Source of the DNA: Halobellus limi
Lineage (GTDB): Archaea; Halobacteriota; Halobacteria; Halobacteriales; Haloferacaceae
DNA: 64,000 bases
Direction: 5' to 3'
Assembly: GCF_004799685.1 (NCBI RefSeq)
Contig: NZ_CP031311.1
Coordinates: 1,426,001-1,490,000 of the forward strand
Below, one piece after another: positions 7,039 through 64,000 of this stretch. The notes beneath the pieces were generated by a model. That model was not told where the DNA came from. It made no database searches and worked only from the letters and a program-made list of their open reading frames with translations. Each line of letters begins with the position of its first letter. Position 1 is the stretch's first letter. The translations under genes were made by a program, and so were the position numbers.

Positions 7039-8955
7039 TCAGCGGAACCGGAACGTTTCGAGGTTCTTCGGGGTGAACGTCCGGAGGTGGTACTCGTGGT
7101 ACAGCCCGGAGGAGAGGTCCTGGACGGCGCGTTCGTCGCCGTCGACGCAGAGGATCTTTTCGGGGCGAGGGTTCATCGTCTTCACGAAGTTCTCGAGGCC
7201 CTGCCGGTCGGCGTGTCCGGAGAAGCCGTCGAAGGTGTCCACGTCCGCCTCCAGGCGGATCGACTCCGAGCGGCCGACGCCGTCGTCGATCGGGACCTCC
7301 TCGAGACCGTTCTCGATGCGGCGGCCGAGCGTCCCCTGCGCCTGGTAGTCGACGAAGACGAGCCGTGAATTGGGGTCGGGGCCGGCGTGGCGGAGCCACG
7401 AGGTGATCGGTCCACCCGTGACCATCTCGGCGGGCGCGAGGACGATCGCGGGGTCCCTCTCGACGATCTCCCGACGCTCGTCGTCGTCGCCGTCGAACTG
7501 CGAGAACGCGTCGGCGAGGAACGGGTTGTCCTCCTCGCCGAAGATGCGGTCGCGGAGGTCCGAGCGGAGGTACTCGGGGTACGTGGTGTGGACCGCGGTC
7601 GCCTCCCAGATCATCCCGTCGAGGTGGACGGGCATACTCGGGATCTCCCCCTCGCGCATCGCCTCTTCGAGCACGAGCATCAGCTCCTGTGCGCGGCCCA
7701 CCGCGGAGGTCGGAACGACGACCGTGCCGCCGCGGTCGTGCGTCTCGTTGATCGCCTCGACGAGCTTTCGCTCGGAGTCCTCCTGGTCTGTCTGATAGTC
7801 GTTTCGACCGCCGTAGGTCGACTCTAACACGAGCGTCTCGACGCGCGGGAAGTCGTTGACCGCGCCGTCGAACAGTCTCGTCTCCCCGTAGTGGACGTCG
7901 CCGGAGAAGGCGACGTTGTAGAGGCCGTCGCCGATGTGGAAGTGCGCGATCGCCGATCCCAGCGCGTGCCCGGCGTTGTGGAGCGTCAGTTTGACGTCCG
8001 GCGCGATGTCGGTGACGTCGCCGTACTCGATGGGGATGGCGTGTTTGATCGCCTCGCGGACCATCTCCGGGTCGTAGGGCGGCGACCGTCCCTCCGTGCG
8101 CTCCACGTCGAGGTAGTCGAGTTGGAGCAGTCCCATCAGGTCCCGCGTGGGTTCGGTCGTGTAGACCGGGCCGTCGTAGCCGTGCTTGTAGAGCAGCGGA
8201 ATCAGCGCGGAGTGATCGAGGTGCGCGTGCGTGAGAATGACCGCGTCCAGGGAGTTCGCGCCGGCGCCGAGCGCCTCCGGGATGTCCATATACGGCGGCT
8301 CGCCGGTCCCCGGCTTCTCGCCGCAGTCGACCAGGACTCGCGTCTCCGCCGTCGAGAGGATGAACGACGACCGCCCGACCTCCCGGCAGGAGCCGAGCAT
8401 CGTGATCCGGACCCACTGCTCGTTGGCGAGTTCCTCGCGGTGGATCTGTCGGCCGACGCGTTCGAGGATCTGTCGGCGGTCCTCGCGCTCCTGCTTGAGG
8501 AAGTCCCGGACGTTCGACACCGTCGAAGATTCGATCGGCGGCGTCCGAACCACCTCGGGCGTCCAGCCGACCTCCCGGGTGATCTCCCGGAGGGTCTCGC
8601 CGTTGCGGCCGATGACCACTCCGGGTTTGTCGGCCTGGATGACGACCTCGCCGGTGTCCTCGTGGAAGTCGAGGTCGGTGACGCCGGCCTCCTCGGGGAT
8701 CACCTCGAGGATCCGGTCTCTGGCCCGCTCGGGCGGCGACAGCGCCACGGGGTCCGGACGGACGGTGATCCGCTTGCGGAGTTTGCCCGCGAGGTCGCGA
8801 ACCAGGTCCCCGTTCCGGGCGAACCGCTTCGGGTCACGCGTGTAGATGACCAGTTCCGGACCCTCGTAAGTGACGTCCGACACCGAGATGTCGGCCGGCA
8901 GCTCCGATTTGATCTCTGCTTTCAACTCCTCGAGTTGCGTGTCTACTGAACTCAT
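7039..8955 (-). CDS. aCPSF1: KH-domain beta-CASP ribonuclease (transcription-termination nuclease)
   Basis: A 638-residue beta-CASP metallo-beta-lactamase nuclease. Two N-terminal KH-like domains (about residues 1-180, including [18 protein letters not shown]) precede the MBL core with [10 protein letters not shown], the zinc motif [15 protein letters not shown] (about 240), FSGDVHYG, and the beta-CASP region ending in [10 protein letters not shown]. The family (FttA/aCPSF1) cleaves pre-mRNA behind archaeal RNA polymerase and causes transcription termination. The start at 8955 gives [20 protein letters not shown], matching family length; the open frame upstream is not conserved. It is divergent from the 9228 gene. 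Confidence 0.95.
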
Positions 8956-49418: not shown

Positions 49419-52364
49419 ATGTCCGCCCACGTCTTATCGATCACTCTCTCCGTCGTACTCGTTCTCGCGATGGGCGCTAGTGGCGCCGTCGGCAGTTACC
49501 ACGAATCACCCGGAGCGGACACGTCCCCGGCGGTCGCGGGAGATACTGGAGACAGTGTTTGGAGTGATCGAGCCCCGGGTGAGCACGACCGATCCGTAGG
49601 CGATTTCGATCCGTCGGCCTCCACGCGCGACCGCGAACCGGTCCCTGACGATGCAAGAGCACGCGAGCGGATCGCGTCGGCGAGCACGACCCAAGAGATC
49701 CAAGAAGACGTCTCCTGGCTGAACGCCCCCGAAGGATTCCGCGTGACGGAGTTTTCGACGGCGGACGAACTCGGTGGGAGGGACACCTTTACGGCCGGTC
49801 CGACACCGGGTGCGCGGATCCTCCGCTTTCACAACGACACGCTCTACGTGTCGGTCCCGACCTTCGGTGCCGGAACTGACCGGATACTCGCCCTCCCGGA
49901 CGACGACGGCGACGGAGAGGCCGATCGGGTCGTCACGGTGCTCGAGAGTCCCGAAATAAGCGACGCCCACGGCTTCGACTTCGCCGACGACCACCTGTAT
50001 CTGGTCAATCACGGCCCCCATAGCGAACAGAACAACATCGTCCGGTATCGGATGTCGGGGCTCTCGGTCGACACCTCCTCGAGGACCGTTCTCAACGACA
50101 GCCTCCCGAGTAGAGGGGAGTACTGGCACTGGACGCGAACGCTCGAAGTGCGGGACGATCACCTCTACGTCGCCGCCGGCTCGGAGTCGAACGTCGACGA
50201 GTCCTCGGGCGGCTGGTACGCCCGGATGACGCGCTGTGACGTCGACGGATCCGACTGCACCTCCTACGCCGAGGGGCTCCGGAACGCCGTCGGATTCACT
50301 TTCCACGACGGCGAGCTGTTCGCGACGGACAACGCGCGGGACGACCTGACCGACGAACTCCCGCCCGACGAGATCAACGTCGTCCGGCAGGGGGCCCACT
50401 ACGGGTGGCCGTACTGCTACGGGGACAACGTCGCCGACCCCGCCTTCGACGATCCGAGCAAGTGTACCGACAAGGCCACACCCGCGGTGAACCTCCGGGC
50501 GCACACGGTTCCGCTGGGCCTCGAGTTCTACACCGCGGACGCGTTCCCGAGCGAGTATCGGGGCGATCTGTACGTCGCGATGCACGGGAGCTACAGCGCG
50601 ATTCCGCCGCGCGGGTACAAGGTCGTCCGCGTCCCCTACGACGACGGGACGCTCGGGACGCCCGAGGACTTCGTCACCGGGTGGTACGACAGCGACGGCG
50701 ACGGAGATCCCTACGAGAAGGGCGAGGACATCCTCGGGCGGCCGGTCGACGTCGCGGTCGGCCCCGACGGGGCGATGTACGTCTCCGACGACTCCGGGGG
50801 CGCGATCTACCGGATCGCCCCGACGAACACCGCGCCGCGGGCGAACGTCTCGTGGTCGCCAGAGCGCCCGGAGACGAACGAGACGGTCGCGTTCGACGCG
50901 TCGAACTCGACCGATCCGGACGGGTCGATCGCGAGTTACGAGTGGGACTTCGACGGCGACGGGGCCGCAGACGCCACCGGCGAGACGGCCAACTGGACGT
51001 TCCCCACAAGCGGCGAGCGGACGGTGACCCTGACGGTCACCGACGACGGCGGGGCCACGGACGCCCAGCAAGTGACGCTCACCGTCGAGGAGCCACCGTC
51101 GCCGGCGAACTTCCGGATCGGGAACGTGACCGCGCCGGACAGCGTGACCCGGGGGGACCTCATCAACGTCTCAGCGGAGATAACCAACGTCGGCGATCGA
51201 GAGGCGACTCAAACCGTCGAATTCCGCCTCGATGCGGACGGTAACGGGACGCTCGAACCCAACGAATCGCTCGATTCGACGACGGTGAGGCTCGGCGGCA
51301 CCGAATCGACGACCGTGGCGTTCGTCGGGATCGAGACGTCCGAACTCGCGCCGGGCGAGTACACCCACGGCGTCGTCACGGCGAACGAGACGGCCACCGC
51401 GACGGTCGCCGTCGAGGCACCGAACCGCCCGCCGACCGCCGACGCCGGTGAGAACCGGACTGTCGAGGAAGGGGACTCGGTGAGCCTCGACGGCTCCGGC
51501 TCCAGCGACCCCGACGGAGACACGCTCGCGTACGCCTGGACGCAGACGGCCGGTCCGACGGCGTCCGTGGCCGACGAGACCTCGGCCACGCCGACGGTCA
51601 CAGCGCCCGAAGTCGACGCCAACCGGACGCTCGTCTTCGAGCTGTCGGTCTCCGACGGTAACGGCGGCACCGACACCGACGCGGTGACGGTCGAGGTACT
51701 GGACGATCCGGACCCGCCGGATCCGGCTCCGCCGGCGACGACGGTGACGCTCTCGCCCGAGCAGTCCGAGGTTCTGATCGGCGAGAACGCGACGTACGAC
51801 GTCGTCGTCGACAGCGTCGACGGCGGGGTCGGCGCGTACAACCTGAGCGTCTCGGTGGAGAACGAGAGCGTCGCCACCGTCGCTGACGCCGGCGTCTCGG
51901 GCACCCCGAGCCGGACCGACGTGAGCTACGGGGCGGACGGCTCGACGGTTCGGATCGAGGCGACGGGCGCGGACACCGCAGACACCGGGAGCGTCGCCGT
52001 CGCGTCGGTCGTGGTCTCCGGATCGACGGCGGGAACGAGCGATCTCACCGTCGCAGCCCGGTCGATCGAGACCGAGAACGGGACCGGATACAACGTCACC
52101 GAGGAGCGCGACGCGTCGGTGACGGTCTCCGCGCTCGATCCGATCGGGGAGTTCGAGAACCCGCCGACGGATCCCGACGGAGACGGCCTGTACGAGGACG
52201 TCAACGGTGACTCGCAGTTCGACGTCGTCGACGTTCAGGCGCTTTTCGCCAACCGGAACGATCCGGCGGTTCGAAACCGGCCGGATCGATTCGACTTCAA
52301 CGGAGACGGGCGCGTCGACGTCGTCGACGTGCAGAGACTGTACTACGAGGTGCTAACCAAATGA
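49419..52364 (+). CDS. Giant secreted sugar-dehydrogenase-like propeller protein with PKD, CARDB, cohesin-like and dockerin modules
   Basis: A 981-residue exported protein. Signal peptide: SITLSVVLVLAMGASGAVG. Residues about 80-465 form a glucose/sorbosone-dehydrogenase-like propeller (GHYGWPYCYGDN-type motif in VRQGAHYGWPYCYGDNVADP; VAVGPDGAMYVSDDSGGAIY). Next come a PKD domain (about 470-554), CARDB (about 561-667), a REJ/PKD-like domain beginning PPTADAGENRT (about 670-760) and a cohesin-like beta domain (about 773-904). A type I dockerin-like end follows (918-981) with two calcium-loop/helix units, VNGDSQFDVVDVQALFANR and FNGDGRVDVVDVQRLYYEV. Its stop overlaps the next gene (ATGA). Enzymatic activity is unproven. 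Confidence 0.85.
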   Translation: MSAHVLSITLSVVLVLAMGASGAVGSYHESPGADTSPAVAGDTGDSVWSDRAPGEHDRSVGDFDPSASTRDREPVPDDARARERIASASTTQEIQEDVSWLNAPEGFRVTEFSTADELGGRDTFTAGPTPGARILRFHNDTLYVSVPTFGAGTDRILALPDDDGDGEADRVVTVLESPEISDAHGFDFADDHLYLVNHGPHSEQNNIVRYRMSGLSVDTSSRTVLNDSLPSRGEYWHWTRTLEVRDDHLYVAAGSESNVDESSGGWYARMTRCDVDGSDCTSYAEGLRNAVGFTFHDGELFATDNARDDLTDELPPDEINVVRQGAHYGWPYCYGDNVADPAFDDPSKCTDKATPAVNLRAHTVPLGLEFYTADAFPSEYRGDLYVAMHGSYSAIPPRGYKVVRVPYDDGTLGTPEDFVTGWYDSDGDGDPYEKGEDILGRPVDVAVGPDGAMYVSDDSGGAIYRIAPTNTAPRANVSWSPERPETNETVAFDASNSTDPDGSIASYEWDFDGDGAADATGETANWTFPTSGERTVTLTVTDDGGATDAQQVTLTVEEPPSPANFRIGNVTAPDSVTRGDLINVSAEITNVGDREATQTVEFRLDADGNGTLEPNESLDSTTVRLGGTESTTVAFVGIETSELAPGEYTHGVVTANETATATVAVEAPNRPPTADAGENRTVEEGDSVSLDGSGSSDPDGDTLAYAWTQTAGPTASVADETSATPTVTAPEVDANRTLVFELSVSDGNGGTDTDAVTVEVLDDPDPPDPAPPATTVTLSPEQSEVLIGENATYDVVVDSVDGGVGAYNLSVSVENESVATVADAGVSGTPSRTDVSYGADGSTVRIEATGADTADTGSVAVASVVVSGSTAGTSDLTVAARSIETENGTGYNVTEERDASVTVSALDPIGEFENPPTDPDGDGLYEDVNGDSQFDVVDVQALFANRNDPAVRNRPDRFDFNGDGRVDVVDVQRLYYEVLTK

Positions 52365-55300
52365 GCGTAACCGACAATAAATTCACATTAGACACGAAGA
52401 GTATCATCGTCCTGACGGTCGCCGCCCTCGTCGCGGTCGGAAGCATCGGCGGGGCGGCCGCGGGGGTCGGCTCTCTCGGCGGCCTCCAGATGGTGACAGC
52501 CCAGGAAGAAGAATCGAAAGAGACGGCGGTTCGTCTCGAACCGAGCAGTGCCACGGTCAATCCGGGACAGACGACGACGTACGACGTTGTCGTCCAGGAC
52601 CCGGTCGCGACACCCAACGGCAGCATCGCCGCTTACGAGCTGACAGTCTGGATCGAGGAGTCGCAGGTCGCCTCCATCACCGATTTCAGTATCGTCGGAG
52701 ATCCCGGGCTAGCGGACGTGAACGAGGACCCTAGTAACTCATCGGTTCGGGTCTCCGTGGCTCTGGCGAACATATCCGGGACCGACAACGTCTCGATCGG
52801 AACCGTAACCGTTCGTGGCCAGGCACCCGGAAACAGTGACATCGGGCTCAGCGTGAATTCTCTGGGTGATCCGGAGGGCAATTCTTATACCGTGACTGAG
52901 ACGCCCGGCGCATCGATCACCGTCGAATCGCCGGGACAACCCGAATCCGACCCGGCTGACTTCGAGGTGTCGAACCTGCAGGCGCCGTCGAGTGCGATGC
53001 AGGGTGACTTGATCGACGTCTCCGCGGACGTCGAAAACGTCGGCGACTCCGAGGGAACGCAGACGGTCGGGTTCCGGATCGGATCCGGTTCTCTCGAATC
53101 GGATGACGACTTCCTCACACAGGAGGTGACGCTGGAGAGCGGCGAGACCGAGACCGTCACGTTCAGCGATATCGACACGAGTAGCCGCTCGCCCGGGGAC
53201 TACACCCACGGCATCTTCACCGCCAACGACTCCGAGACGGCGACGATCACCATCGAGGAGCGACCGGAGACCAGCGTGAGTCTCCAGCCGAGTACCGCGA
53301 CGGTCGACACCGGTGAGACGACGACCTACGACGTCGTCGCCGACAGCGCGTCCGAAGGCGTCGGCGCCTACAACTTCACCGTCAGCGTCGCGGACACGTC
53401 CGTCGCCTCGATAACCGACGCCGAGGCGTTGGCGAACGCGTCCACGACCGACGTCTCCGTCGCGAGCGACGGCTCGTCGGTCGAAGTCGTCGGCGCGATG
53501 GCGGACACGTCCGACACCGGGAGCGTCACGATCGGGAACGTGACCGTCGAAGGCGTCGACCCCGGAAATAGTGCAGTCGGACTCAGCGTGGAAGCGCTGG
53601 GCACGCAAGCGGGCGACGGGTACGAGGTAACTGACACGTCCGGCGCGTCGATCACCGTCGAGGCGCCCGGGGGCGATCCCGGTCCCAGTCCTGATCCTGG
53701 TCCGGCGGACTTCGGAGTGTCGAACCTCCAGGCCCCGTCGAGCGCGACGGTCGGTGACTCGATCGACGTCTCCGCGGAGATCACCAACACCGGCGACTCC
53801 GAGGGAACCCAGTCCGTCGACTTCCGCCTCGATCAGAACGACAACGACGACCTCGAAACCAACGAGACCCTCGACTCCCAGAACGTGACGCTGGGAGCGG
53901 GCGAGAGCACGACCGTGACGTTCAGCGATATCGACACCAGCGGCCTCGAACCGGGCGAGTACACCCACGGCGTGGCCACGGCGAACGAGACGGCCACCGC
54001 GACGATCGAACTCACGGCTGCCAACGAGCCGCCGACCGCTGACGCCGGCGAGGATCAGACCGTCGTGGAAGAGGCGTCCGTGACGCTCGACGCGAGCGAC
54101 TCCACCGACCCGGACGACGACTCGCTCGCGTACGCGTGGACCCAGACCGACGGCCCGAACGTCTCGCTCCCTGATTCGAGCGCGGCGGATCCGTCCTTCA
54201 CGGCTCCGGACGTCGACGAGGAGACGACGCTGACCTTCGAGGTGGAGGTCAGTGACGGCGAGGGCGGCACCGACACCGACGAGGTGACGGTGACCGTGCT
54301 CCCCGCCGAGGAGGAGGCGTTCTTCGCTGTCACCTCGCTGGACGTGCCGGCCGAAGTCCAGCAGGGCGAGTCCGTCGAGGTCACCGGCGAGATCACCAAC
54401 ACCGGTGACGTCGAGGAAACGCAGACCGTCGAGGTCCGCATCGACTTCGATCGGGACGGGACTCCGGAGACGGTCCAGTCGCGGTCGATAACCCTCGCGG
54501 GCGGGGAAAGCACCTCGCTGACGCTCACTCGAACCGTTCCCCCGGCCGTCTCACCGGGGACGTACACCGGCGGCCTGTTCACCGACGATGACTCCGAGAC
54601 GGCGACGGTGACGGTCGTCCCGCCGTCACAGGGCCCGCCCGAGGAGAACGAACCGCCGACCGCCGACGCCGGCGATGATCGGACCGTCTCCGAAGAGAGC
54701 ACTGTGACGCTCGACGCCAGTGGGTCCACGGACCCCGACGGCGACTCGCTGTCGTACACGTGGACCCAGACCGACGGCCCGGACGTCTCGCTCTCTGATT
54801 CGAGCGCGGCGGATCCGTCCTTCACGGCCCCATTGGTCGACGATGAGACGACGCTGACCTTCGAGGTGGAGGTCAGTGACGGCGAGGGCGGCACCGACAC
54901 CGACGCGGTGACGGTGACCGTCGAGCCGGTCGAGACCGCCGGAGCGTTCTTCGAGGTCACGGCCCTCCACGTTCCGGATCGAGCGGCACAGGGCGAATCC
55001 GTCGAGGCCACCGGCGAGATCACCAACACCGGTGACGCCGAGGGCACTCAGACCGTCGAGGTCCGCATCGACGTCGACGGCGACGGTACCCCGGAGACGA
55101 TACGGTCGCGCTCGATAACCCTCTCCGCCGGGGAAAGCTACTCGATGACGGCGACGCGAACCGTCCCGACGGATCTGGAACCGGGGACCTACACCGGCGG
55201 CCTGTTCACCGAGGACAGCAGCCTGACGGACACGATCGAGATCGTGGCGGCCCAGCCGGACGAGCGGTTCACGCGCGATGAGATCGCCCAGGCCAAGTAC

Positions 55301-55798
55301 GGGTACGACTTCGACGAACTCAGCGACGAGACGTCACGGGAGGTCGAGGAGCTGTACAACCGTCAGCCGTTCGCAGACGGTGCACACCCCGAGGACGTCA
55401 AGACGCGCGACGAGATCGCACAGGAGCGTCACGACAGGGACTTCGACGAACTGAGCCGCGAAACCACGGTCGAGATCCAGTCCGACTTCGACGCGCAGTT
55501 CGGCGATACGGGCGACGACGCGGAGTACACCCGCGACGAGATCGCCCAGGCCAAGTACGGCCACGACTTCGACGAACTGAGCACCGAGACCTCCGGACAG
55601 GTCGAGGAGCTGTACAACCGCCAGCCGTTCGCAGACGGTGCGAGTCCGAGCGAAGTCCAGACTCGCGAGGAGATAGCGAACCAGAAGTACGGAATGGACC
55701 TCGACGAGCTCAGTCGTGAGACGCGACTGGAAATCGAGGGAACGTACCACGAACAGTTCGCGGCGTCCACGGAGGGATCCGAGCAGTCACCGGAGTAA
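52361..55798 (+). CDS. Giant secreted modular surface protein: two cohesin-like, four CARDB, two PKD-like domains and four 44-residue repeats
   Basis: A 1145-residue exported protein; the N-terminal signal is TKSIIVLTVAALVAVGSIGG. Order: cohesin-like 1 (about 54-182), CARDB 1 (198-295), cohesin-like 2 (304-430), CARDB 2 (447-547), REJ/PKD 1 (554-648), CARDB 3 (652-757), REJ/PKD 2 (761-858), CARDB 4 (861-965). Four repeats follow, starting at 971, 1015, 1057 and 1101 with consensus TRDEIAQxKYGxDFDELSxE. There is no membrane helix or sorting tag at the C-terminus. It is coupled to the dockerin-bearing gene by an ATGA overlap, so a cohesin-dockerin pairing between the products is a natural inference. 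Confidence 0.85.
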   Translation: MSVTDNKFTLDTKSIIVLTVAALVAVGSIGGAAAGVGSLGGLQMVTAQEEESKETAVRLEPSSATVNPGQTTTYDVVVQDPVATPNGSIAAYELTVWIEESQVASITDFSIVGDPGLADVNEDPSNSSVRVSVALANISGTDNVSIGTVTVRGQAPGNSDIGLSVNSLGDPEGNSYTVTETPGASITVESPGQPESDPADFEVSNLQAPSSAMQGDLIDVSADVENVGDSEGTQTVGFRIGSGSLESDDDFLTQEVTLESGETETVTFSDIDTSSRSPGDYTHGIFTANDSETATITIEERPETSVSLQPSTATVDTGETTTYDVVADSASEGVGAYNFTVSVADTSVASITDAEALANASTTDVSVASDGSSVEVVGAMADTSDTGSVTIGNVTVEGVDPGNSAVGLSVEALGTQAGDGYEVTDTSGASITVEAPGGDPGPSPDPGPADFGVSNLQAPSSATVGDSIDVSAEITNTGDSEGTQSVDFRLDQNDNDDLETNETLDSQNVTLGAGESTTVTFSDIDTSGLEPGEYTHGVATANETATATIELTAANEPPTADAGEDQTVVEEASVTLDASDSTDPDDDSLAYAWTQTDGPNVSLPDSSAADPSFTAPDVDEETTLTFEVEVSDGEGGTDTDEVTVTVLPAEEEAFFAVTSLDVPAEVQQGESVEVTGEITNTGDVEETQTVEVRIDFDRDGTPETVQSRSITLAGGESTSLTLTRTVPPAVSPGTYTGGLFTDDDSETATVTVVPPSQGPPEENEPPTADAGDDRTVSEESTVTLDASGSTDPDGDSLSYTWTQTDGPDVSLSDSSAADPSFTAPLVDDETTLTFEVEVSDGEGGTDTDAVTVTVEPVETAGAFFEVTALHVPDRAAQGESVEATGEITNTGDAEGTQTVEVRIDVDGDGTPETIRSRSITLSAGESYSMTATRTVPTDLEPGTYTGGLFTEDSSLTDTIEIVAAQPDERFTRDEIAQAKYGYDFDELSDETSREVEELYNRQPFADGAHPEDVKTRDEIAQERHDRDFDELSRETTVEIQSDFDAQFGDTGDDAEYTRDEIAQAKYGHDFDELSTETSGQVEELYNRQPFADGASPSEVQTREEIANQKYGMDLDELSRETRLEIEGTYHEQFAASTEGSEQSPE

Positions 55799-56698: not shown

Positions 56699-56947
56699 GC
56701 TCGGACACGGAGGTCGTCGTCCACGACGGAGCGACTGAGCTCCCGGTGTGGGTACATCGATCCCGACTCGCCGTCAACGGCTGTCTTCCGTTCGCTCCGC
56801 TTTCGGGAGCGAGAGACGAATCGGACCGCAATCGACTTCGAATCGGCTCGGAAGGAAGTCCGCCCTCCCCGGGAACAACTTCTCGATTGGCGTTGCTGAT
56901 TCTCGTACGCTGACCGCTGTAAGCCGGTTTTTGGATCATCGGATTTC
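56699..56947. other. Spacer between the SDR gene and the integrase
   Basis: No gene, tRNA or tRNA fragment is recognisable. If the integrase marks an element end, the attachment site should lie here or in the SDR 3' end, but I found no matching copy elsewhere in the window. Confidence 0.4.
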
Positions 56948-57967
56948 TCATAGGACTTCGATATGTTCGCGGCGCTGTTCCATCCGGTCGCGAAGCTTCT
57001 CCTCGCGGGGACGCTCGTCGTAGTGCTGTTCGATCACTTCTTGCGTCGCGTTCACCCGACGCTCGATCACCTCCGCCGGCAGCCCCTCTCGCTTCATCCG
57101 GATGATCGCCGCCGACCGGACGTCGTGGGGAGACCGCGACGACGGACACAGCGACCGCCGACCGGTTTCGGTAGCCTCGCACGTCTCGATCTCCCGATCG
57201 TGCGGACACCCACCGATCCAACACGGCGTCGTCAGCCGGTAGATTAGTTCCCGAATCGCTGACTCGGAGAACCGCCCCTGACGCGTCGAGATCAGCGGCC
57301 GTCGGCCCTGATCGTCGGTGACGTCGTGGCGGTTCACCCGGCGGTAGTCCTCGATCAGCTCGACGATCTCGTCGGTCAGGGCGACCCACCGCTCGCCCGA
57401 CGTCCCGTTCTTCAGCGGCGTCGCCGGCGGTCGGTGATTGAACTCGACGAAGTTCTCGTCGGGGTGGAAGTCACCGACGTCGATCGCCCGGAGCCCGCCG
57501 AGACGACACCCGATATGGAAGAACAGCGCGAGCGTCACGTGATCGCGACTCGCGTACTCGAACTTCGCCAGATAGTCGAGCACGTCGTCGACGCGATCGG
57601 GCTGAAGATCGTGGGTCCGAACCAGTTCGTCCTCGTTCAGCGACGGGATGCGGACCTTCGAGGCGATCCCCTCCGGTGCGGCCTCGATCGATTCGCAGAA
57701 CTCCAAGAACGCCTTGTAGGTAAAGGAGTTCCCGCGGAGTGTCGACGGTGCGACCTCGCAGTCCTCGATACGGTACCGCCGGTACCGAGCGAGATCACGG
57801 CCGGTCAGTTCGGTCAGGTCGTCGATTCCCTCCTCGTGGAGCCACTTCTTCAGCTGCTTCAGCCGATACTCGTGGGCCCGACGCGACCGCTGGCGAAGAT
57901 CCACCCGATCCGAGAGGTACATTTGAATCGCTTCGTCGGGCGAGATCGGATTCAGGTCGTCGCTCAC
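56948..57967 (-). CDS. Tyrosine recombinase/integrase (XerC/D-like)
   Basis: A 339-residue site-specific recombinase. A SAM-like core-binding domain covers residues 1-105 (YRLKQLKKWLHEEGIDDLTE). The catalytic domain has box I R155 in FFHIGCRLGGLRAIDVGDF, HxxR with H281 and R284 in SRSPHDVRSAAIIRMKREGL, and the nucleophile Y316 in ATQEVIEQHYDERP. A cysteine set (C249, C254, C263, C274) in the insertion before the HxxR may hold zinc. The start is GTG at 57967, overlapping the stop of the upstream Cys-rich gene (GTGA). It probably moves the island that extends to the right. Confidence 0.92.
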   Translation of the reverse strand: MSDDLNPISPDEAIQMYLSDRVDLRQRSRRAHEYRLKQLKKWLHEEGIDDLTELTGRDLARYRRYRIEDCEVAPSTLRGNSFTYKAFLEFCESIEAAPEGIASKVRIPSLNEDELVRTHDLQPDRVDDVLDYLAKFEYASRDHVTLALFFHIGCRLGGLRAIDVGDFHPDENFVEFNHRPPATPLKNGTSGERWVALTDEIVELIEDYRRVNRHDVTDDQGRRPLISTRQGRFSESAIRELIYRLTTPCWIGGCPHDREIETCEATETGRRSLCPSSRSPHDVRSAAIIRMKREGLPAEVIERRVNATQEVIEQHYDERPREEKLRDRMEQRREHIEVL

Positions 57968-58581: not shown

Positions 58582-58851
58582 ATGCGTCGGCCGGTGGTGT
58601 CGTGGATGACAAAATCCGACGACGCCATTCTCGAACTTCTGGCAGAAGCGGGGATCGCTATTCCTCCGACAGCGATTGCGTTCAATATAGAAAATGTCTC
58701 GCGGCCGACCGTTGATCGTCGTCTCCCGAATCTGGAAGCTGTCGGTCTCGTAAAGCGCTTCGACGAGCCGCAAGGGTACACCGAAATCACCGAAAAAGGA
58801 AAATTGTACCTCGCGGGCGATCTCGACGAAGACGACCTCCCGGAACCGTAG
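58582..58851 (+). CDS. phiH1-type winged-helix repressor
   Basis: An 89-residue winged helix. It begins MRRPVVSWMTKSDDAILELL, the same opening (MR.P..WM...DD.ILE.L) as halophage phiH1 repressor-like proteins, which is why the ATG at 58582 is preferred over that at 58606. Then come IAFNIENVSRPTVDRRLPNL (recognition helix) and VKRFDEPQGYTEITEKGKLY with the conserved ITEkGk.YL motif. It is divergent from the integrase operon and probably represses both directions through the TATCATAG sites. The toxin-antitoxin pair follows 39 bases downstream. Its last codons (E-P-stop) mark the left boundary of the duplicated module. Confidence 0.82.
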   Translation: MRRPVVSWMTKSDDAILELLAEAGIAIPPTAIAFNIENVSRPTVDRRLPNLEAVGLVKRFDEPQGYTEITEKGKLYLAGDLDEDDLPEP

Positions 58852-58890
58852 CGACAGAACGCTTATTCGACCAGTGCTCAAAGAGAAGGT

Positions 58891-59157
58891 ATGGCGAGCG
58901 CGACACGCGACGCACCCGATGAGGAGGGCGTCGAGTTCATCCACGAGGAAGACGGCAAGATCACCGCCAAGGATCTCGAAACCGGTGTCGCGTCCTTCGG
59001 CGACACGAAGGCCGAAGCCCTCCGGATGCTCGCGGAGGCGATCGAGCTTCACGAGGGCGGCGGCGAGCCCGTGACCGAGGAAGACCTCGAAGAATGGGGT
59101 CTCGACCCCGATCCGGTGCCGGACGAGCCGAAGGAACTCCCTGATTTTATGAAGTGA
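58891..59157 (+). CDS. hicB: HicB-like antitoxin (copy 1)
   Basis: An 88-residue protein with the partial RNase-H-like HicB fold: FIHEEDGKITAKDLETGVAS, then FGDTKAEALRMLAEAIELHE, the sequence by which HicB antitoxins are recognised. There is no separate DNA-binding domain, unlike longer HicB proteins, so the neighbouring phiH1-type repressor may do the regulation. TATA-like CTTATTCG (58862-58869) lies 27 nt upstream, so the message is leaderless. The stop is followed at once by the HicA ATG (TGAATG). It should neutralise HicA by direct binding. Confidence 0.85.
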   Translation: MASATRDAPDEEGVEFIHEEDGKITAKDLETGVASFGDTKAEALRMLAEAIELHEGGGEPVTEEDLEEWGLDPDPVPDEPKELPDFMK

Positions 59158-59409
59158 ATGGTCCGGACGAACTTCTCCGGACACGATATCGCGTCGGTGC
59201 TCCACGACTTCGGCTACAAGCGTGTCGGCCGTGTCGGGAGCCACCTGAAGATGCGCTACGAGTCGCCGGACACTGACGAAGTTCGAATCGTCTCGATCCC
59301 GATGAAGTCCGAGGATGAAATCCCGACCGGAACCCTCCAGTCGATCGCTGATCAGTGCGGTGCGGAGGACTTCCACGCGTGGTGCGAGTGGATCGACGAG
59401 CATCGCTGA
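59158..59409 (+). CDS. hicA: HicA toxin, mRNA interferase (copy 1)
   Basis: An 83-residue dsRBD-like HicA: MVRTNFSGHDIASVLHDFGY, then GRVGSHLKMRYESPDTDEVR with the catalytic His in GSH, and PTGTLQSIADQCGAEDFHAW. HicA toxins cleave mRNA and are held by HicB. It is contiguous with hicB, with no intergenic base. It is tail-to-tail with the 92-residue gene, 5 bases apart. The likely role is stabilisation of the island or phage-induced growth arrest. Confidence 0.88.
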   Translation: MVRTNFSGHDIASVLHDFGYKRVGRVGSHLKMRYESPDTDEVRIVSIPMKSEDEIPTGTLQSIADQCGAEDFHAWCEWIDEHR

Positions 59410-59414
59410 CGCGT

Positions 59415-59693
59415 TCATACTTCCTCCGAACCGCCTCGGACGGCTCGAATCTCGATTCTCGATAAGACCGGCTCGATCCACTCGGGGAGCCGGCCGATCT
59501 CCCAGCGCGAGTACGCGATCTCGTCGTTGACGACGAACTCCCAGGTGTCGCTTCCGGCGTCGACGACGACTCGGCTATCTGGGTTGTCGAAAACTAACAG
59601 CGTGATCGCGCCGATGTCCGTCTCTTCGACGTCGTCGGGCTCGATCGTCGTGACGTGGTCTGCGTTCCGTGGATTTGGTGGTATTCGTTGCAT
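59415..59693 (-). CDS. Uncharacterised 92-residue protein convergent with hicA
   Basis: Not recognised. The sequence is acidic and beta-rich by inspection (VTTIEPDDVEETDIGAITLL, VVVDAGSDTWEFVVNDEIAY, LPEWIEPVLSRIEIRAVRGG), with no Cys and no membrane segment. A minus-strand TATA-like TTTTTACATA (about 59717-59727) is placed 27-30 nt from the ATG, so it is probably expressed. A truncated copy lies at 61531-61653. It is not related by eye to HicA or HicB, so it may be a third component of the module. Confidence 0.65.
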   Translation of the reverse strand: MQRIPPNPRNADHVTTIEPDDVEETDIGAITLLVFDNPDSRVVVDAGSDTWEFVVNDEIAYSRWEIGRLPEWIEPVLSRIEIRAVRGGSEEV

Positions 59694-59760
59694 CCACGAG
59701 ATCCGACAATGGGTATGTAAAAAGTGAAACCGGGCGTGATATCGGAAACGGAACGGAAAC
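59662..59760. repeat. 99-bp perfect direct repeat, copy 1
   Basis: Bases 59662-59760 are identical to 61622-61720. They contain the first 11 codons of the 92-residue gene, its promoter, and a plus-strand stretch ending in ATATCGGAAACGGAACGGAA. This is far more similar than the flanking hicA/hicB coding sequence, which points to recombination or gene conversion. Confidence 0.95.
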
Positions 59761-59859
59761 GTCGATTTCGGCGTTTTTAGGTTATCCAGACGTCAGCGAA
59801 CGGCAAAATATCGGAAATATCGGAAGTGTTGCCGTGATGCGATTAGCGGAATATCGGAA
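59739..59859 (+). repeat. Four copies of ATATCGGAA
   Basis: ATATCGGAA occurs at 59739-59747, 59808-59816, 59817-59825 and 59851-59859, all in the same orientation, the middle two adjacent. Copy 2 of the module keeps two (61699-61707 and 61802-61810). Same-direction short repeats in an AT-rich, gene-free stretch resemble iterons or a regulator-binding array; the last copy is exactly at the module boundary. Confidence 0.85.
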
Positions 59860-59884
59860 ATGGCCTATGTGCTGGTCCCTTACG

Positions 59885-59891
59885 TATATAA
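59885..59891 (+). promoter_or_regulatory. TATA box of the protease gene
   Basis: TATATAA centred 27 nt before the ATG at 59915, which fixes that ATG as the start of a leaderless message rather than any upstream in-frame codon. Confidence 0.75.
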
Positions 59892-59914
59892 TGCCAGTTT
59901 ACAACCTATTTGTG

Positions 59915-60784
59915 ATGTCAGTTGAAAATAAAATACGGGATGCAACCTGTAGGGTGGATTCAAGAGGGTCACAATTGGGTTCTGCGTTTTGGGTGGATAG
60001 CAATTTGCTACTTACTGCTGCCCACGTTGTAGAGGCGAGTCCAGATGAGACTGTATCTATTCGGACTGTCGATGGCGAGTCATTTCAGGCAGATATTGTA
60101 AAAAAAGACGTGAATACCGATCAGAATTCGGGATCTGATCTCGCCCTACTGGAAGCAGATGTTCCTCCCGAGGATTATGAGGTTCTTCCAATGAATACAG
60201 AAATTCCTTCGATCGGCACCGAGGTATTGTGGTCTGGATACGCACGTCTCGTGGGAGAACCCAAAATAGACAGACAGCGTTTTGGCTGGGGGCGAGTCGC
60301 TTCCACTGAATACGGAGAAGGGGAAGGAAGTTTCTTCGAGGTAGACGGGCTGTTCAATCCCAGCCACAGCGGTGGACCTGTTATAGATAATGCTAGTGGA
60401 AATGTGGTTGGGGTTGTCTCTGCCAGTGCTGGTGGATTTGGCGATGTTGAGCAGAAGTGGACGGAACAAATTACCCAACTTCAGGAACTGTTCAAATTAC
60501 AGTCCTCTTCGGACGGAATGCTCTTTCGAACATATGAATATGAAGACCCAGGAAGAGGCATTCAAGCAAAAACTGTTTTCCAGAGTATGGGTTTGAATGT
60601 TGACTCAGATGTAGATGATGATGGAAATATTCACCTTCAGATTAACACAGAAGAGATTCCCTTAGCAGCCGGGAAAATTCAGGCCGAACTTGCAAAGTTA
60701 CTTCTCGATACCTCGCAAGCTACATTTCAAATGGGCGTTGGAATTGCCTCGGGTGGAAGCTTTCTAAAAGAATTCATTAGATGA
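59915..60784 (+). CDS. Trypsin-like serine protease, AT-rich cargo gene 1
   Basis: A 289-residue cytosolic protein with a chymotrypsin-fold protease domain: catalytic His37 in LLLTAAHVVEASPDETVSIR, Asp75 in NSGSDLALLEADVPPEDYEV and Ser152 in FNPSHSGGPVIDNASGNVVG. The usual GNSGGP is SHSGGP. No signal peptide, so it acts inside the cell. Residues about 205-289 form an unassigned C-terminal domain (GIQAKTVFQSMGLNVDSDVD). Base composition and codon use are much more AT-rich than the island's hic genes and the chromosome, indicating separate acquisition. Cytosolic trypsin-like proteases are common effectors in prokaryotic defence loci; that role is an inference here. Confidence 0.85.
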   Translation: MSVENKIRDATCRVDSRGSQLGSAFWVDSNLLLTAAHVVEASPDETVSIRTVDGESFQADIVKKDVNTDQNSGSDLALLEADVPPEDYEVLPMNTEIPSIGTEVLWSGYARLVGEPKIDRQRFGWGRVASTEYGEGEGSFFEVDGLFNPSHSGGPVIDNASGNVVGVVSASAGGFGDVEQKWTEQITQLQELFKLQSSSDGMLFRTYEYEDPGRGIQAKTVFQSMGLNVDSDVDDDGNIHLQINTEEIPLAAGKIQAELAKLLLDTSQATFQMGVGIASGGSFLKEFIR

Positions 60785-60799
60785 ATAGTTGAGACAGTA

Positions 60800-60948
60800 T
60801 CAGGGTTCTTGAAACTCGTACCGTTTCCCCCGACCAGCCCCCGCCGACGTGATTAGTTCGTCCTGCTCCAGCGACTGCAAATACTTCCGCCGCGTACTCT
60901 TCACCCGTGGATTCTGAACCCGATCCTCATACGAGCGTGTAACGTCGA
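60800..60948 (-). pseudogene. Orc1/Cdc6 C-terminal winged-helix fragment
   Basis: Read on the minus strand, the last about 49 codons encode VDVTRSYEDRVQNPRVKSTR and RKYLQSLEQDELITSAGAGR, nearly the same as the C-terminus of the Orc1/Cdc6 gene at the right edge (NPRVKSTRRKYLQSLE vs DPRVKSTRRKYLQSLE). No AAA+ part is attached: upstream the frame runs into the promoter of hicB copy 2. It is a stranded remnant of a second cdc6 gene, cut at the left edge of the duplicated module. Confidence 0.85.
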
Positions 60949-61011
60949 CGCGTCGATCTCTCCGAACCGTAGCGACAGAACGCTTATTCGATCGGTCCCC
61001 AAAGAGAAGGT

Positions 61012-61278
61012 ATGGCGAGCGCCACACGAGACGCGCCCGACGAGGAGGGCGTGATCTTCATCCGGGAGGAAGACGGCTCGATCACCGCGAAGGACTTGGA
61101 AACGGGTCTCGCTCGCGGTGGCGACACGCGAGCCCAGGCGCTCCGATTGCTCTCGGAGGTTCTCGAACTCCACGAGGGCGGCGGCGAGCCGATCACTGAG
61201 GAGGACCTCGAAGAGTTCGGAATCGAGGACCTCGAAACCCCCGACGAGCCGAAGGAACTCCCCGACTTCTTGCAGTAA
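61012..61278 (+). CDS. hicB: HicB-like antitoxin (copy 2)
   Basis: An 88-residue paralogue of the antitoxin at 58891, same length, with FIREEDGSITAKDLETGLAR and RAQALRLLSEVLELHEGGGE. Differences concentrate in the middle and the C-terminal acidic segment (EEFGIEDLETPDEPKE), a likely toxin-specificity surface. TATA-like CTTATTCG at 60983-60990 keeps the 27-nt spacing, so it has its own leaderless promoter although its repressor gene is missing. It starts four codons from the module's left boundary signals and precedes hicA by 3 bases. Confidence 0.85.
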   Translation: MASATRDAPDEEGVIFIREEDGSITAKDLETGLARGGDTRAQALRLLSEVLELHEGGGEPITEEDLEEFGIEDLETPDEPKELPDFLQ

Positions 61279-61281
61279 TCG

Positions 61282-61527
61282 ATGGTGCGAACGACGTTCT
61301 CGGGCCGCAATATCATCGGCGTACTCACTGATTTCGGCTGGACGCCGGTCTCTCGCGAGGGAAGCCATATTCGGCTTCGATACGAGAACAGCGATACCGA
61401 CGAGGTGCGTCTCGTCGACGTCCCGATGCACGACGAGATCGCGATCGGGACGTTGCACTCGATCGCCGATCAGTGCGGAGCCGACGACTTCCACGCGTGG
61501 TGCCGCTGGATCGACGAGCATCGGTAG
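61282..61527 (+). CDS. hicA: HicA toxin (copy 2)
   Basis: An 81-residue HicA with MVRTTFSGRNIIGVLTDFGW, the catalytic His in VSREGSHIRLRYENSDTDEV, and the conserved end IADQCGADDFHAWCRWIDEH. It differs from copy 1 mainly in residues 9-30 and 47-57 (two residues deleted). The changes suggest the two TA pairs may be insulated from each other. Intact frame and active-site His predict a functional toxin. Confidence 0.88.
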   Translation: MVRTTFSGRNIIGVLTDFGWTPVSREGSHIRLRYENSDTDEVRLVDVPMHDEIAIGTLHSIADQCGADDFHAWCRWIDEHR

Positions 61528-61530
61528 CGC

Positions 61531-61653
61531 GCGTCTGTCCCGATCGTCGAAGACGGACAGGGTGATTGCTCCGACGTCGGCCTCGTCGATATCGTCGGGC
61601 TCAATCCTCGTGACGTGGTCCGCGTTCCGTGGATTTGGTGGTATTCGTTGCAT
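61531..61653 (-). pseudogene. Truncated copy of the 92-residue gene
   Basis: The first about 41 codons (MQRIPPNPRNADHVTRIEPD onward to VFDDRDRR) match the gene at 59415-59693; the C-terminal half is missing and the frame runs into antisense hicA sequence. The 5' part and promoter are intact because they belong to the 99-bp identical repeat. Confidence 0.8.
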
Positions 61654-61720
61654 CCACGAGATCCGACAATGGGTATGTAAAAAGTGAAACCGGGCGTGAT
61701 ATCGGAAACGGAACGGAAAC
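61622..61720. repeat. 99-bp perfect direct repeat, copy 2
   Basis: Identical to 59662-59760 at every base; the match breaks at once on the left (one mismatch at 61621, then scattered) and decays on the right. Confidence 0.95.
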
Positions 61721-61861
61721 ATCGATTACAGCGTTCTTAGGTGCTTCAGACGTCAGCTAACGTCGAAATACCCGGAGTGCCGCTGTGATGCGATTAGCGG
61801 AATATCGGAAGCAAAAAATTAGCGACGGTCTTTTGACATCGGATAGCCAATTAGGGCATCT

Positions 61862-63532
61862 ATGCCGTGCCCGAGTTGTGGTAATCTTCTCTGCGTTTCA
61901 GACGACCGTGAGTATCTATTTTGCCCATCTTGTGATGGACTAAGAGTTGAGTCGGATGCTGTAATTCAAGCAACAATGAATTGGCATCTGAAAGATCGGT
62001 TCCCCGAGGAACGCATTCTGACAGCAGCCGAGGATTACAGCAAGAGAGCTTTAGTTTTGTACTTGTTATCTCGTCTAAATCATATCACAAACGTCCATCG
62101 TTCAGACGATAAATTCGGGTTCCCCGTCGACGAATTTGGTTACCTTTTCTACATTCTAAAGCAGTTATACGAAAAACCGCAATCTGATTTTGGTAACGAA
62201 ATCACCTCGGGTGATTTTCGGGAATTAGACGAGAATATCGAAATTCTCCGAGACGCATATACAAAAATAATCAAGATATATACGGAGGTGAAAAATGGTT
62301 TCCAAATTTGCGTTCGGAAACGTCATTATAACGGTCGGATAGATGATTTTCCGACTAACTACAGGCGGTACCAGTCTGAACTAGGACTCTGTTTCGACCG
62401 ATGTATGAAAAGCATCGTGTGTGGTGATCCAGATACATACGAGGATTTTACTTTTGTGGTGGATACACTTCGCTCAACCGATAAGACAGATCCAGAGAAC
62501 GTAGAAAATTCCTGGGACTTCGCCGATGCCTGGTATCATTATATTCTTCAACTCCGACTACTGGCATCTTCGGATCAAATGGTCGGCAATGTCTATTATA
62601 CTCGATTACCTGAGGAAGTAACCATTTTCCATATTGAGGAGTTTCTCGACAGACTCGACAGTCGAATCACGGACAAACAACACCAAGAACTACAGGAGAA
62701 TAGCTATCTGAATATGAAAGAAATTCAAGAAGTAGAACAATGTGGGAGAGCCGCCTTTGGAGATCTGTGGGATGATGTTTGGGATTCTCTAGTCCTGAGT
62801 GAGCATAATCTGGGTGCTCATCCGTTCCTAGTAGCTGTAGATGTCGAAGAAGAATATGAGCCTAACCGGAATCTACCTCCAAGGAAACGTGAAACCACGA
62901 AAGTTGTATATCCTCGATTCTTTGCACAGACTCTCAAATTTCAGCTGTTTCCACTTCTTAAGAACGGTGACGAACCTAGAAGTCACACAATTCTCTCTCA
63001 ATTAACGGCTGAAAGGGGAGAGTCATATGAAAGAAATATGTATGAATATCTCGATAAGAGCGGATTGGAATGCTACCAAGGCGCAGAAGTGACAAAATCT
63101 AATCCCAATGAGATCGATTTGATCGTGGAATTACCTGAGAAGATCTTATTCATTGAAATGAAATATCTGATGCCCCCTGCTAAGATCAATGAACGAGAGG
63201 GAATAATGGAACTCAACGAGAAGTTTGATCGAACTATCTTTAATGAGGTTTCTGAGGATTCAGACCGCGAACCTGAGGGTAAACCTTTCCCTGAAAAAGT
63301 TGGTACTTGGATGGATCTCGCACCGGGAGATCGGTTTGTTTCGCGAGATGGATCGGAAAACAATAATCGAAATAAGCACAAAATTAGCGAAGATTGGAAC
63401 AACTTAGAGTCTGAGATGATCGTACTGTCTAACGTTGTTCCCTCTTATCCAGTGAAAGAAGGAGTTCGGTTCCTCACTGATTTGGAGTTCTACCAGTGGA
63501 TGGAACACGGAGACAAGAGTGCGTTTTACTAG
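61862..63532 (+). CDS. Zinc-ribbon protein with C-terminal PD-(D/E)XK nuclease domain, AT-rich cargo gene 2
   Basis: A 556-residue protein. An N-terminal zinc ribbon uses C3/C6 and C21/C24 (PCPSCGNLL and LFCPSCDG). A long helical middle region (about 35-380) has no recognised family. The C-terminal domain has the restriction-endonuclease core: helix YERNMYEYLDKSGLECYQGA, then D419 in NEIDLIVELPEKILFIEMKY with E432 and K434 (ExK). A TATA-like TTTTGACA (61831-61838) lies 27 nt upstream. It is markedly AT-rich like the protease gene. No partner methylase is in the window, so this is not a standard restriction-modification system; an abortive or self/non-self discriminating nuclease is possible. 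Confidence 0.8.
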   Translation: MPCPSCGNLLCVSDDREYLFCPSCDGLRVESDAVIQATMNWHLKDRFPEERILTAAEDYSKRALVLYLLSRLNHITNVHRSDDKFGFPVDEFGYLFYILKQLYEKPQSDFGNEITSGDFRELDENIEILRDAYTKIIKIYTEVKNGFQICVRKRHYNGRIDDFPTNYRRYQSELGLCFDRCMKSIVCGDPDTYEDFTFVVDTLRSTDKTDPENVENSWDFADAWYHYILQLRLLASSDQMVGNVYYTRLPEEVTIFHIEEFLDRLDSRITDKQHQELQENSYLNMKEIQEVEQCGRAAFGDLWDDVWDSLVLSEHNLGAHPFLVAVDVEEEYEPNRNLPPRKRETTKVVYPRFFAQTLKFQLFPLLKNGDEPRSHTILSQLTAERGESYERNMYEYLDKSGLECYQGAEVTKSNPNEIDLIVELPEKILFIEMKYLMPPAKINEREGIMELNEKFDRTIFNEVSEDSDREPEGKPFPEKVGTWMDLAPGDRFVSRDGSENNNRNKHKISEDWNNLESEMIVLSNVVPSYPVKEGVRFLTDLEFYQWMEHGDKSAFY

Positions 63533-63578: not shown

Positions 63579-64000
63579 TCAAGGTGAATTAAACCGATAC
63601 TTTGTACCGCGACCCGTGCCTGAAGATGAGACCAATTCATAGTGCTCTAACGACTGCAAATACTTCCGCCGAGTACTCTTCACTCGCGGATCCCCGGCAC
63701 GCTTCTCGTACCTTTCGTGCAACTCCGAAGCCCCGATCTCGCCGGCGTCTTTGATGATCTCGTAGAGGTGGCGCTGATGCGTCCCGAGCGTATCGACGTG
63801 GCGCTCGTGGATCTCCTCACGTGCCTCTTCCCGGATCGGTCGAACGTTCCCCACGGTCAGCTTCTCGTCGTCTCTCTCGACGACGTCACGGACCGCGCGC
63901 CGAAGCAACGTGATCGCGTGGCGGGCGTCGCCGGCGGCGATATCGGCGATCGTCTCGACGGCGTCTTCGTCGACGACGCCGGAAGCGAGCCCGGCGTTGA
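63579..64000 (-). CDS. Orc1/Cdc6 family replication-initiator protein, N-terminus cut by the right edge
   Basis: The visible 140 C-terminal residues contain the AAA+ sensor-2/lid region (VETIADIAAGDARHAITLLR, where GDAR is the family signature) and a complete winged-helix domain (TLGTHQRHLYEIIKDAGEIG, then DPRVKSTRRKYLQSLEHYEL and a glycine wing SSGTGRGTKYRF). The frame continues beyond 64000. Orc1/Cdc6 proteins bind origins or plasmid/provirus replication sites; haloarchaea carry many, several on mobile elements. Composition is close to chromosomal. Tail-to-tail with the nuclease gene. Confidence 0.9.
   Translation of the reverse strand, partial: NAGLASGVVDEDAVETIADIAAGDARHAITLLRRAVRDVVERDDEKLTVGNVRPIREEAREEIHERHVDTLGTHQRHLYEIIKDAGEIGASELHERYEKRAGDPRVKSTRRKYLQSLEHYELVSSSGTGRGTKYRFNSP

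Follow-up and report, generated by a model that had tools for sequence, protein, structure and literature searches.

The DNA considered here is a 64,000-nucleotide window of the Halobellus limi genome (G000:C1:1426001-1490000). Towards its end lies what appears to be one arm of a provirus resembling the betapleolipovirus SNJ2, in which a block carrying a HicBA-type toxin-antitoxin pair occurs twice, each copy followed by a different gene. We refer to the two window units as W1 and W2 (units 1 and 2) and to a third locus in the same genome as K. The arm opens with a candidate left attachment repeat, TCCGCCCTCCCCG (56859-56871), with an exact 13-bp second copy at G000:C1:1512790. A tyrosine integrase gene of the SNJ2/LSV-48N type follows on the minus strand (56948-57967; phrog_1 integrase, 1.3e-22), scoring 214 bits against the integrase of the Haloferax virus LSV-48N and 311 bits against the SNJ2 integrase open reading frame (ORF). 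A winged-helix regulator gene occupies the position of SNJ2 gp4 (58582-58851, plus strand; phrog_2440 transcriptional regulator, 5.1e-24). The interval from regulator to gp7, which we call slot A, holds in unit 1 a HicB-type antitoxin gene (58891-59157, plus; Pfam DUF7387, 8.7e-40) colinear with SNJ2 gp5, annotated as HicB, and a HicA-type toxin gene (59158-59409, plus; Pfam HicA_toxin, 1e-11) colinear with SNJ2 gp6. The HicA domain adjoining the antitoxin gene, together with the colinearity with SNJ2, identifies a HicBA pair.

The rest of unit 1 comprises an intact gene for a 92-residue gp7-like protein (59415-59693, minus), an iteron region upstream of it (59694-59859, plus) whose repeat count is reached in 0 of 60 shuffles, and a cargo gene. 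The iteron region ends in a box (59836-59859) that recurs in relatives and forms the left edge of slot B, defined as the interval from the last iteron to the orc1 stop codon. Here slot B carries a trypsin-like protease gene (59915-60784, plus; Pfam Trypsin_2, 7.1e-21; PADLOC RT-Protease_XI, 8.7e-15, and LmuA, 3.7e-11) and is closed by the 3' end of a truncated orc1/cdc6 gene on the minus strand (60800-60963, ~160 bp), which shares 70% identity with the C-terminal 43 residues of K Orc1. At a fusion point, GATCTCTCC (60955-60963), unit 2 begins. It consists of a second HicB-type antitoxin gene (61012-61278, plus; 137 bits to the marker set), a second HicA-type toxin gene (61282-61527, plus; 121 bits), a gp7 gene truncated to residues 1-43 of 92 (61525-61653, minus; G000:C1:1487525-1487653), an iteron region (61654-61810, plus) ending in its own box (61787-61810), and a second cargo gene (61862-63532, plus) encoding a four-cysteine N-terminus and a putative PD-(D/E)XK-type nuclease motif. 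An intact orc1/cdc6 gene closes the arm and runs past the window end (63579-64000, on to ~64583, minus; a 334-residue ORF, 612 bits to the Orc1 profile). The gp7-orc1 interval of the window, 3,885 bp, spans both cargos.

An earlier note, made from these letters alone, had described a block repeated at 58843-59859 and 60964-61810, starting in the last codons of a repressor gene and ending at a 26-bp sequence past which homology stops, and had taken it for a cargo-collecting platform. The two copies are real and diverged, with ~74% identity over 598 bp (regulator tail and hicBA) and ~86% over 274 bp (gp7/iteron part), ungapped pieces being 80-87% identical; the 92-residue gene, however, is whole only in copy 1. 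The same regulator codons open both copies, but copy 1 starts within the intact winged-helix gene, whereas copy 2 keeps just the final few codons and is preceded by the orc1 fragment, not by a repressor gene. The end of the block is as described. The 26-bp sequence GTGATGCGATTAGCGGAATATCGGAA is present in both copies, and its last 24 bp find only these 2 sites in the window at ≤3 mismatches, whereas 100 shuffles gave none. Among W1, W2, K and the relative G427, 47/84 to 69/84 ungapped positions match before the box (comparisons with W2 being lowered by indels) and 12/58 to 22/58 over the 58 bp beyond it. The cargos are likewise AT-rich and unrelated to each other, with a GC content of 0.41-0.49 against ~0.6 in the flanks.

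The protease call for cargo 1 was also borne out. The nuclease family of cargo 2 has matches in 19 of 392 genomes and 13 of 95 haloarchaeal genera, its own genome included. In an alignment of 10 proteins (homologs among L136-L144, of which L140 and L141 appear identical in the stretch printed), C3, C6, C21, C24, D419, E432 and K434 are invariant; the last three residues agree with the PD-(D/E)XK nuclease proposed earlier, the motif name being our reading of the alignment. An AlphaFold model of cargo 2 built from the single sequence had a mean pLDDT of 32.8.

In a DNA search of annotated phage records, SNJ2 (OP012469) was retrieved, whose record runs integrase, two accessory genes, regulator, HicB, HicA, gp7 and Orc1 (gp1-gp8). 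Gene order and strands in the window are the same: integrase (minus), regulator (plus), gp7 (minus) and Orc1 (minus). The layout had been thought unlike any described system; the block is in fact colinear with the left arm of SNJ2. Direct similarity between the gp7-like protein and SNJ2 gp7 is weak (17 residues, E 3e-4 in one comparison), and we assign it to gp7 because position, strand and size agree and because the gp7 of a relative is 27% identical to that of SNJ2. LSV-48N and the pleolipovirus Harhisp1 share the regulator-gp7-Orc1 order, with extra genes ahead of Orc1. The 13-bp repeat, a short match, lies just outside the integrase and, at the far end, just outside a homolog of SNJ2 gp25; if it marks the end of the element, the element spans ~56859 to ~86.8 kb in window numbering. 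Beyond orc1 are found a modification-dependent restriction enzyme, a PIN protein, a second integrase, a protein matching the DnaA-like PHROG 5484, and a spike-like gene that resembles those of five relatives and carries, by our reading, a twin-arginine translocation (TAT) signal. As this spike-like gene is unlike that of SNJ2, the element is probably best described as an SNJ2-like arm and not filed under Betapleolipovirus. 

K has a third copy of the gp7/iteron part (G000:C1:468343-468763), which lacks hicBA; next come another AT-rich gene, unrelated to either window cargo, and an intact orc1. It is bounded by 22- and 15-bp repeats, the former overlapping the end of a tRNA-Ala gene, and contains the one RepSNJ2 homolog of the whole genome; because of these repeats and this homolog, K, ~15.3 kb long, is a provirus-like element. 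In K the regulator tail recurs after two small slot A genes (reverse complement of L007, ~7145-7205), and a similar extra tail is seen in G192. Elsewhere in the genome, another SNJ2-type Orc1 (G000:C1:1666219-1667217) has no recognised gp7 alongside, and matches of ~50 bp occur at C1:1017168 and C1:2380784. HicBA-like matches in three plasmid records were dropped, as no such arm was seen around the match. 

An Orc1 profile was run on 392 genomes and the 40 best places after four already known were taken; with seven earlier loci, SNJ2 and LSV-48N this gave 49 loci. Slot counts refer to the 38 loci with a recognised gp7; the 11 of 49 without one were excluded, and Harhisp1 stands outside the 38. 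With LSV-48N gp7 as query, the gp7 scores rose to 140 bits in G192, 177 in G379 and 64 in G287. Scanning genome contigs gave 10 loci, four close relatives and six distant matches that were left unused, and a scan of viral contigs with two Orc1 peptide patterns confirmed no relative.

Across these loci the gp7-orc1 interval is bimodal. It measures ≤233 bp in 23 of 38 (empty) and 599-3,939 bp in the other 15 (occupied), the one negative value being due to a gp7 frame that is too long. Mapped on the Orc1 tree, the state of slot B must have changed at least 10 times, each change being required by well-supported branches; with shuffled labels the mean is 12, and 68-77 of 500 shuffles are as low as observed. 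The tree neighbours G272 and G447, with 77-89% DNA identity in four aligned pieces, differ by one ~430-bp insert, slot B being empty in G272; that of G267 is empty as well, against ~510 bp in G208. At the insert, the aligned pieces of these close pairs overlap by 3 and 6 bp. Unrelated genes thus occupy one syntenic place and are present or absent between close relatives, the mark of a hotspot. In slot A, 16 of the 35 loci measured have ≤20 bp between the first regulator and gp7. Of the 38 loci, 13 have both hicB and hicA ahead of gp7, while in many others nothing fills the interval. HicBA, too, is thus exchangeable, its place being slot A, and it does not define the platform. The close relatives G125 and G330 share a 703-residue gene (90% identical) in the regulator-gp7 interval, along with a 264-residue gene resembling one in G427; at the same spot, one has hicBA and the other a different small pair (79 and 130 residues).

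The cargo of slot B is mostly unrelated across loci, gene sharing being seen only among LSV-48N, G271 and G192. We scanned 27 slot B proteins with Pfam. The 300-residue protein of K gave no match above cut-off. G287 carries an OLD/Gabija-like ATPase and a protein matching a PADLOC TIR effector, G192 a PIN-like protein with UPF0175, and G347 a transposase of insertion sequence (IS) type. TumE and its helix-turn-helix (HTH) partner, found in LSV-48N, also occur in G271. Further cargo comprises several hydrophobic proteins or proteins without matches. Among four more proteins compared with PADLOC, none was found for TumE or the Harhisp1 pentapeptide protein, weak matches for the HTH partner, and PDC-S70 (5e-20) for the PIN-like protein. 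Slot GC content is at least 8 points below that of orc1 in 12 of the 15 occupied loci. 

What, then, fixes the left edge of the cargo? A search of 170 genomes of the family with a box pattern, itself derived from known loci, gave 9 places in 7 genomes. Eight of these, in 6 genomes, are at this arm; a reversed control gave none among the matches listed. The match in G434 was rejected as chance, since it lies inside a gene that Pfam calls Endo_dU. Cargo stands past the box in W1, W2, K, G427 and G447, and orc1 itself in G216, G272 and G429; G467 has a weak 25-bp match. The expectation that the boundary would recur in other genomes ahead of varied AT-rich genes held in part, for the box does recur, but is followed by such genes or by nothing. 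Some empty sites have no gap between last iteron and orc1 stop (in G272, GGAATATCGAAAG runs straight into TCAGGG), and in others some bases separate the two. Iteron repeats exceed shuffles (≤1/60) in 25 of 38 loci, and their core is lineage-specific, for example ATCGGAAA, GAACGGAA, GAACGAAT and GGCCGGAA. Because the box precedes either cargo or orc1, the "fixed boundary" is positional: it is the junction of two conserved elements, last iteron and orc1 stop. Of the platform at a fixed junction there remains a recurrent insertion place, set by position and lineage-specific in sequence, on a provirus arm that is not free-standing. The iteron region was also considered as a replication origin, which we do not claim, the proposed origin of SNJ2 lying downstream of ORF19.

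Accessory hotspots of a temperate virus are a real and recurrent phenomenon at this place: the arm is syntenic, both slots have occupied and empty sites in relatives, and changes of state have been repeated. We consider it likely that the window holds a provirus arm with accessory-gene hotspots under purifying selection, two units of which are stacked, and not a dedicated cassette system. Recombination between co-resident relatives, illegitimate or homologous, would bring in the cargo. The boundary would seem fixed because iterons and orc1, both under purifying selection, lie near each other in empty sites, and the cargo may help the provirus by protecting or retaining its host. The HicBA-type pair may still help to hold the provirus.

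Several observations weigh against this explanation. The loci were chosen by Orc1 score; 13 of the 38 gp7 assignments score less than 35 bits with the first marker set and depend in part on position, and in 13 of the 38 loci the iteron signal does not exceed that of shuffles. Slot A likewise varies within the close pairs, the insertion point in G208 is ambiguous by eye, and the integrase-regulator interval is variable too (557-5,493 bp in 32 loci). In 3 of the 15 occupied loci (G271, G347 and G141) the slot is not AT-richer than its own orc1, and some cargo may derive from IS insertion, given the transposase in G347. Six of 10 slot B proteins had no PADLOC match at E≤0.01, and one of the other four matched weakly; weak PADLOC matches mean little because the core regulator also drew them. 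PADLOC matches in general indicate family resemblance only, and an antiviral role for the hotspot cargo is at most suggested by that resemblance. For the window provirus itself, the marker search recognised no homologs of gp2 or gp3, no RepSNJ2 homolog was found in it, and a BLASTP comparison of the spike-like protein with the SNJ2 spike gave nothing at E≤10, nor did the protein match any PHROG or Pfam family.

A more active role for the Orc1-iteron region as a cargo-docking site is conceivable and, in our judgement, improbable. Orc1 binding or replication stalling at lineage-specific iterons would make ends that capture genes behind orc1, and an arm common to pleomorphic and lemon-shaped archaeal viruses would be a defence island growing by unit stacking. 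Slightly less credible still is a dedicated cassette system, in which a site-specific activity inserts cargo at the box or iteron and hicBA stabilises the platform. The concentration of box matches at this arm, albeit with a pattern taken from known loci, the five places with cargo past the box, and the single slot B inserts with 3-6 bp end overlap in close pairs all speak for it. Against it, the boundary sequence varies by lineage, many loci lack hicBA, and the sole recombination enzyme among the Pfam-scanned slot B proteins is the IS-type transposase of G347. A test for iteron remnants at the right end of the cargo covered 14 sites in 13 of 15 occupied loci (all but G102 and G271, the W1 right edge used lying 4 bp off) and gave no general support; compared with in-cargo controls the remnants are clear in G208 only (1/14) and weak in G258b and G141. 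No recombination site at both cargo ends together with a dedicated recombinase, as in an integron-like arrangement, was found in the occupied loci tested. Hotspots are favoured over a cassette system because no slot-specific recombinase, shared right-end motif or flanking repeats were found at the loci examined.

The stacking of two units may be read from the fusion point. A number of orc1 genes carry a match to its sequence, GATCTCNCC, and a number of regulator tails another, GATCTCCCN; in K, orc1 and regulator tail both have GATCTCCCC at the motif, other orc1 genes have GATCTCGCC or similar or lack the motif, and other tails differ by 1-2 bases. A fusion at a short motif common to orc1 and regulator tail is no more than suggested, since these stretches share 7-9 bp matches at other points too. 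The unit 1 orc1 fragment is 85% identical to K orc1 over 126 bp (139 bits), the nearest by bit score among twelve compared, and 90% identical to the orc1 of unit 2 over a shorter 49 bp (67 bits). Because the fragment fits K orc1 better than that of unit 2, we read the tandem as a putative recombination product of two related viruses, whose diverged units would have been fused at the motif with the loss of one gp7 and one orc1. What remains is one intact gp7 (unit 1) and one intact orc1 (unit 2), with hicBA and cargo present in each unit. A plain duplication of a single unit in tandem, with cargo swapped later, would account for units lying head to tail in the same order, but we think it doubtful to much the same degree as the cassette system: the copies differ by 14-26%, which in the gp7/iteron part equals the divergence of copy 1 from K, and by bit score K has the orc1 closest to the unit 1 fragment. 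Least probable of all is decay, in which two provirus remnants would have collapsed at an attachment arm they have in common and no special slot would exist. The broken gp7 of unit 2 and orc1 of unit 1 would speak for it, but slot B is occupied in the virus records LSV-48N and Harhisp1 and in loci with intact gp7 and orc1 frames.

Around the arm, two genes downstream of orc1 merit mention: a restriction enzyme just past the window (L018:2303-3457, plus) with an AspBHI N-terminal and an Mrr domain (PADLOC mREase_II, 4e-34), and the PIN protein (L018:3471-3854, minus). Together they possibly form a third accessory place, paralleling the enzyme HHPV4I of the virus HHPV4. Upstream of the provirus, at 52361-55798, lies a gene for a large protein with internal repeats (DNA units 87%, 80% and 73% identical).

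The hotspots give a precise place to seek new defence and toxin genes in archaeal proviruses, and SNJ2, LSV-48N and Harhisp1 differ at the slot. With two cargo loads, one intact gp7 and one intact orc1, the window provirus offers a snapshot of how such islands may grow. It also raises the question of what role the conserved Orc1/iteron pair has in viruses such as SNJ2, where replication is reported to start elsewhere: the available part of PMC13107129 assigns SNJ2 replication to RepSNJ2/ORF19, and the main text of the paper placing the origin downstream of ORF19 contains neither Orc1 nor Cdc6. Orc1 has 0 occurrences in the accessible portion of PMC12714723, and the words toxin, defense, accessory, hypervariable and auxiliary do not appear in the main text of PMC10599561. 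Haloarchaeal proviruses carrying CRISPR-Cas are reported in an excerpt of PMC12596717. Among the matches listed for SNJ2, pleolipoviruses and archaeal virus defence, titles and the starts of abstracts held no description of these slots.

Among the closest known systems, SNJ2 shares the arm order through HicB, HicA, gp7 and Orc1 and has its own slot B empty; the window differs in its unrelated spike-like gene, in lacking RepSNJ2 and recognised gp2/gp3, and in its two stacked units. LSV-48N (PP151251), lemon-shaped according to its abstract, shares integrase, regulator, gp7, slot B cargo and Orc1, but its slot A is empty, and the cargo of its slot B comprises a small hydrophobic protein and a TumE-like toxin with its HTH partner. 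Harhisp1 (MW344767), an active provirus at tRNA-Ala according to the part of PMC7911831 available, has the regulator, a gp7-like gene (33% identical to SNJ2 gp7 over 58 residues), cargo and Orc1; its cargo, at the slot B position, is a pentapeptide-repeat protein, and its Orc1 is ~32% identical to that of K. For HHPV4, the accessible text of PMC10101028 describes the restriction enzyme HHPV4I, characterised as a protein and proposed to exclude other viruses, with its gene near two repressor genes. HHPV4 resembles the window in having this extra defence-like gene (ORF6) just beyond a pair of repressor genes and a single short ORF of the same arm, but it has no Orc1 match by tblastn and its enzyme differs. 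Bacterial phages and their satellites have defence or accessory hotspots in which variable, often defence-like genes lie between conserved core genes. The arrangement described here is alike in setting variable genes between core genes and differs in being archaeal and set by an Orc1/iteron boundary.

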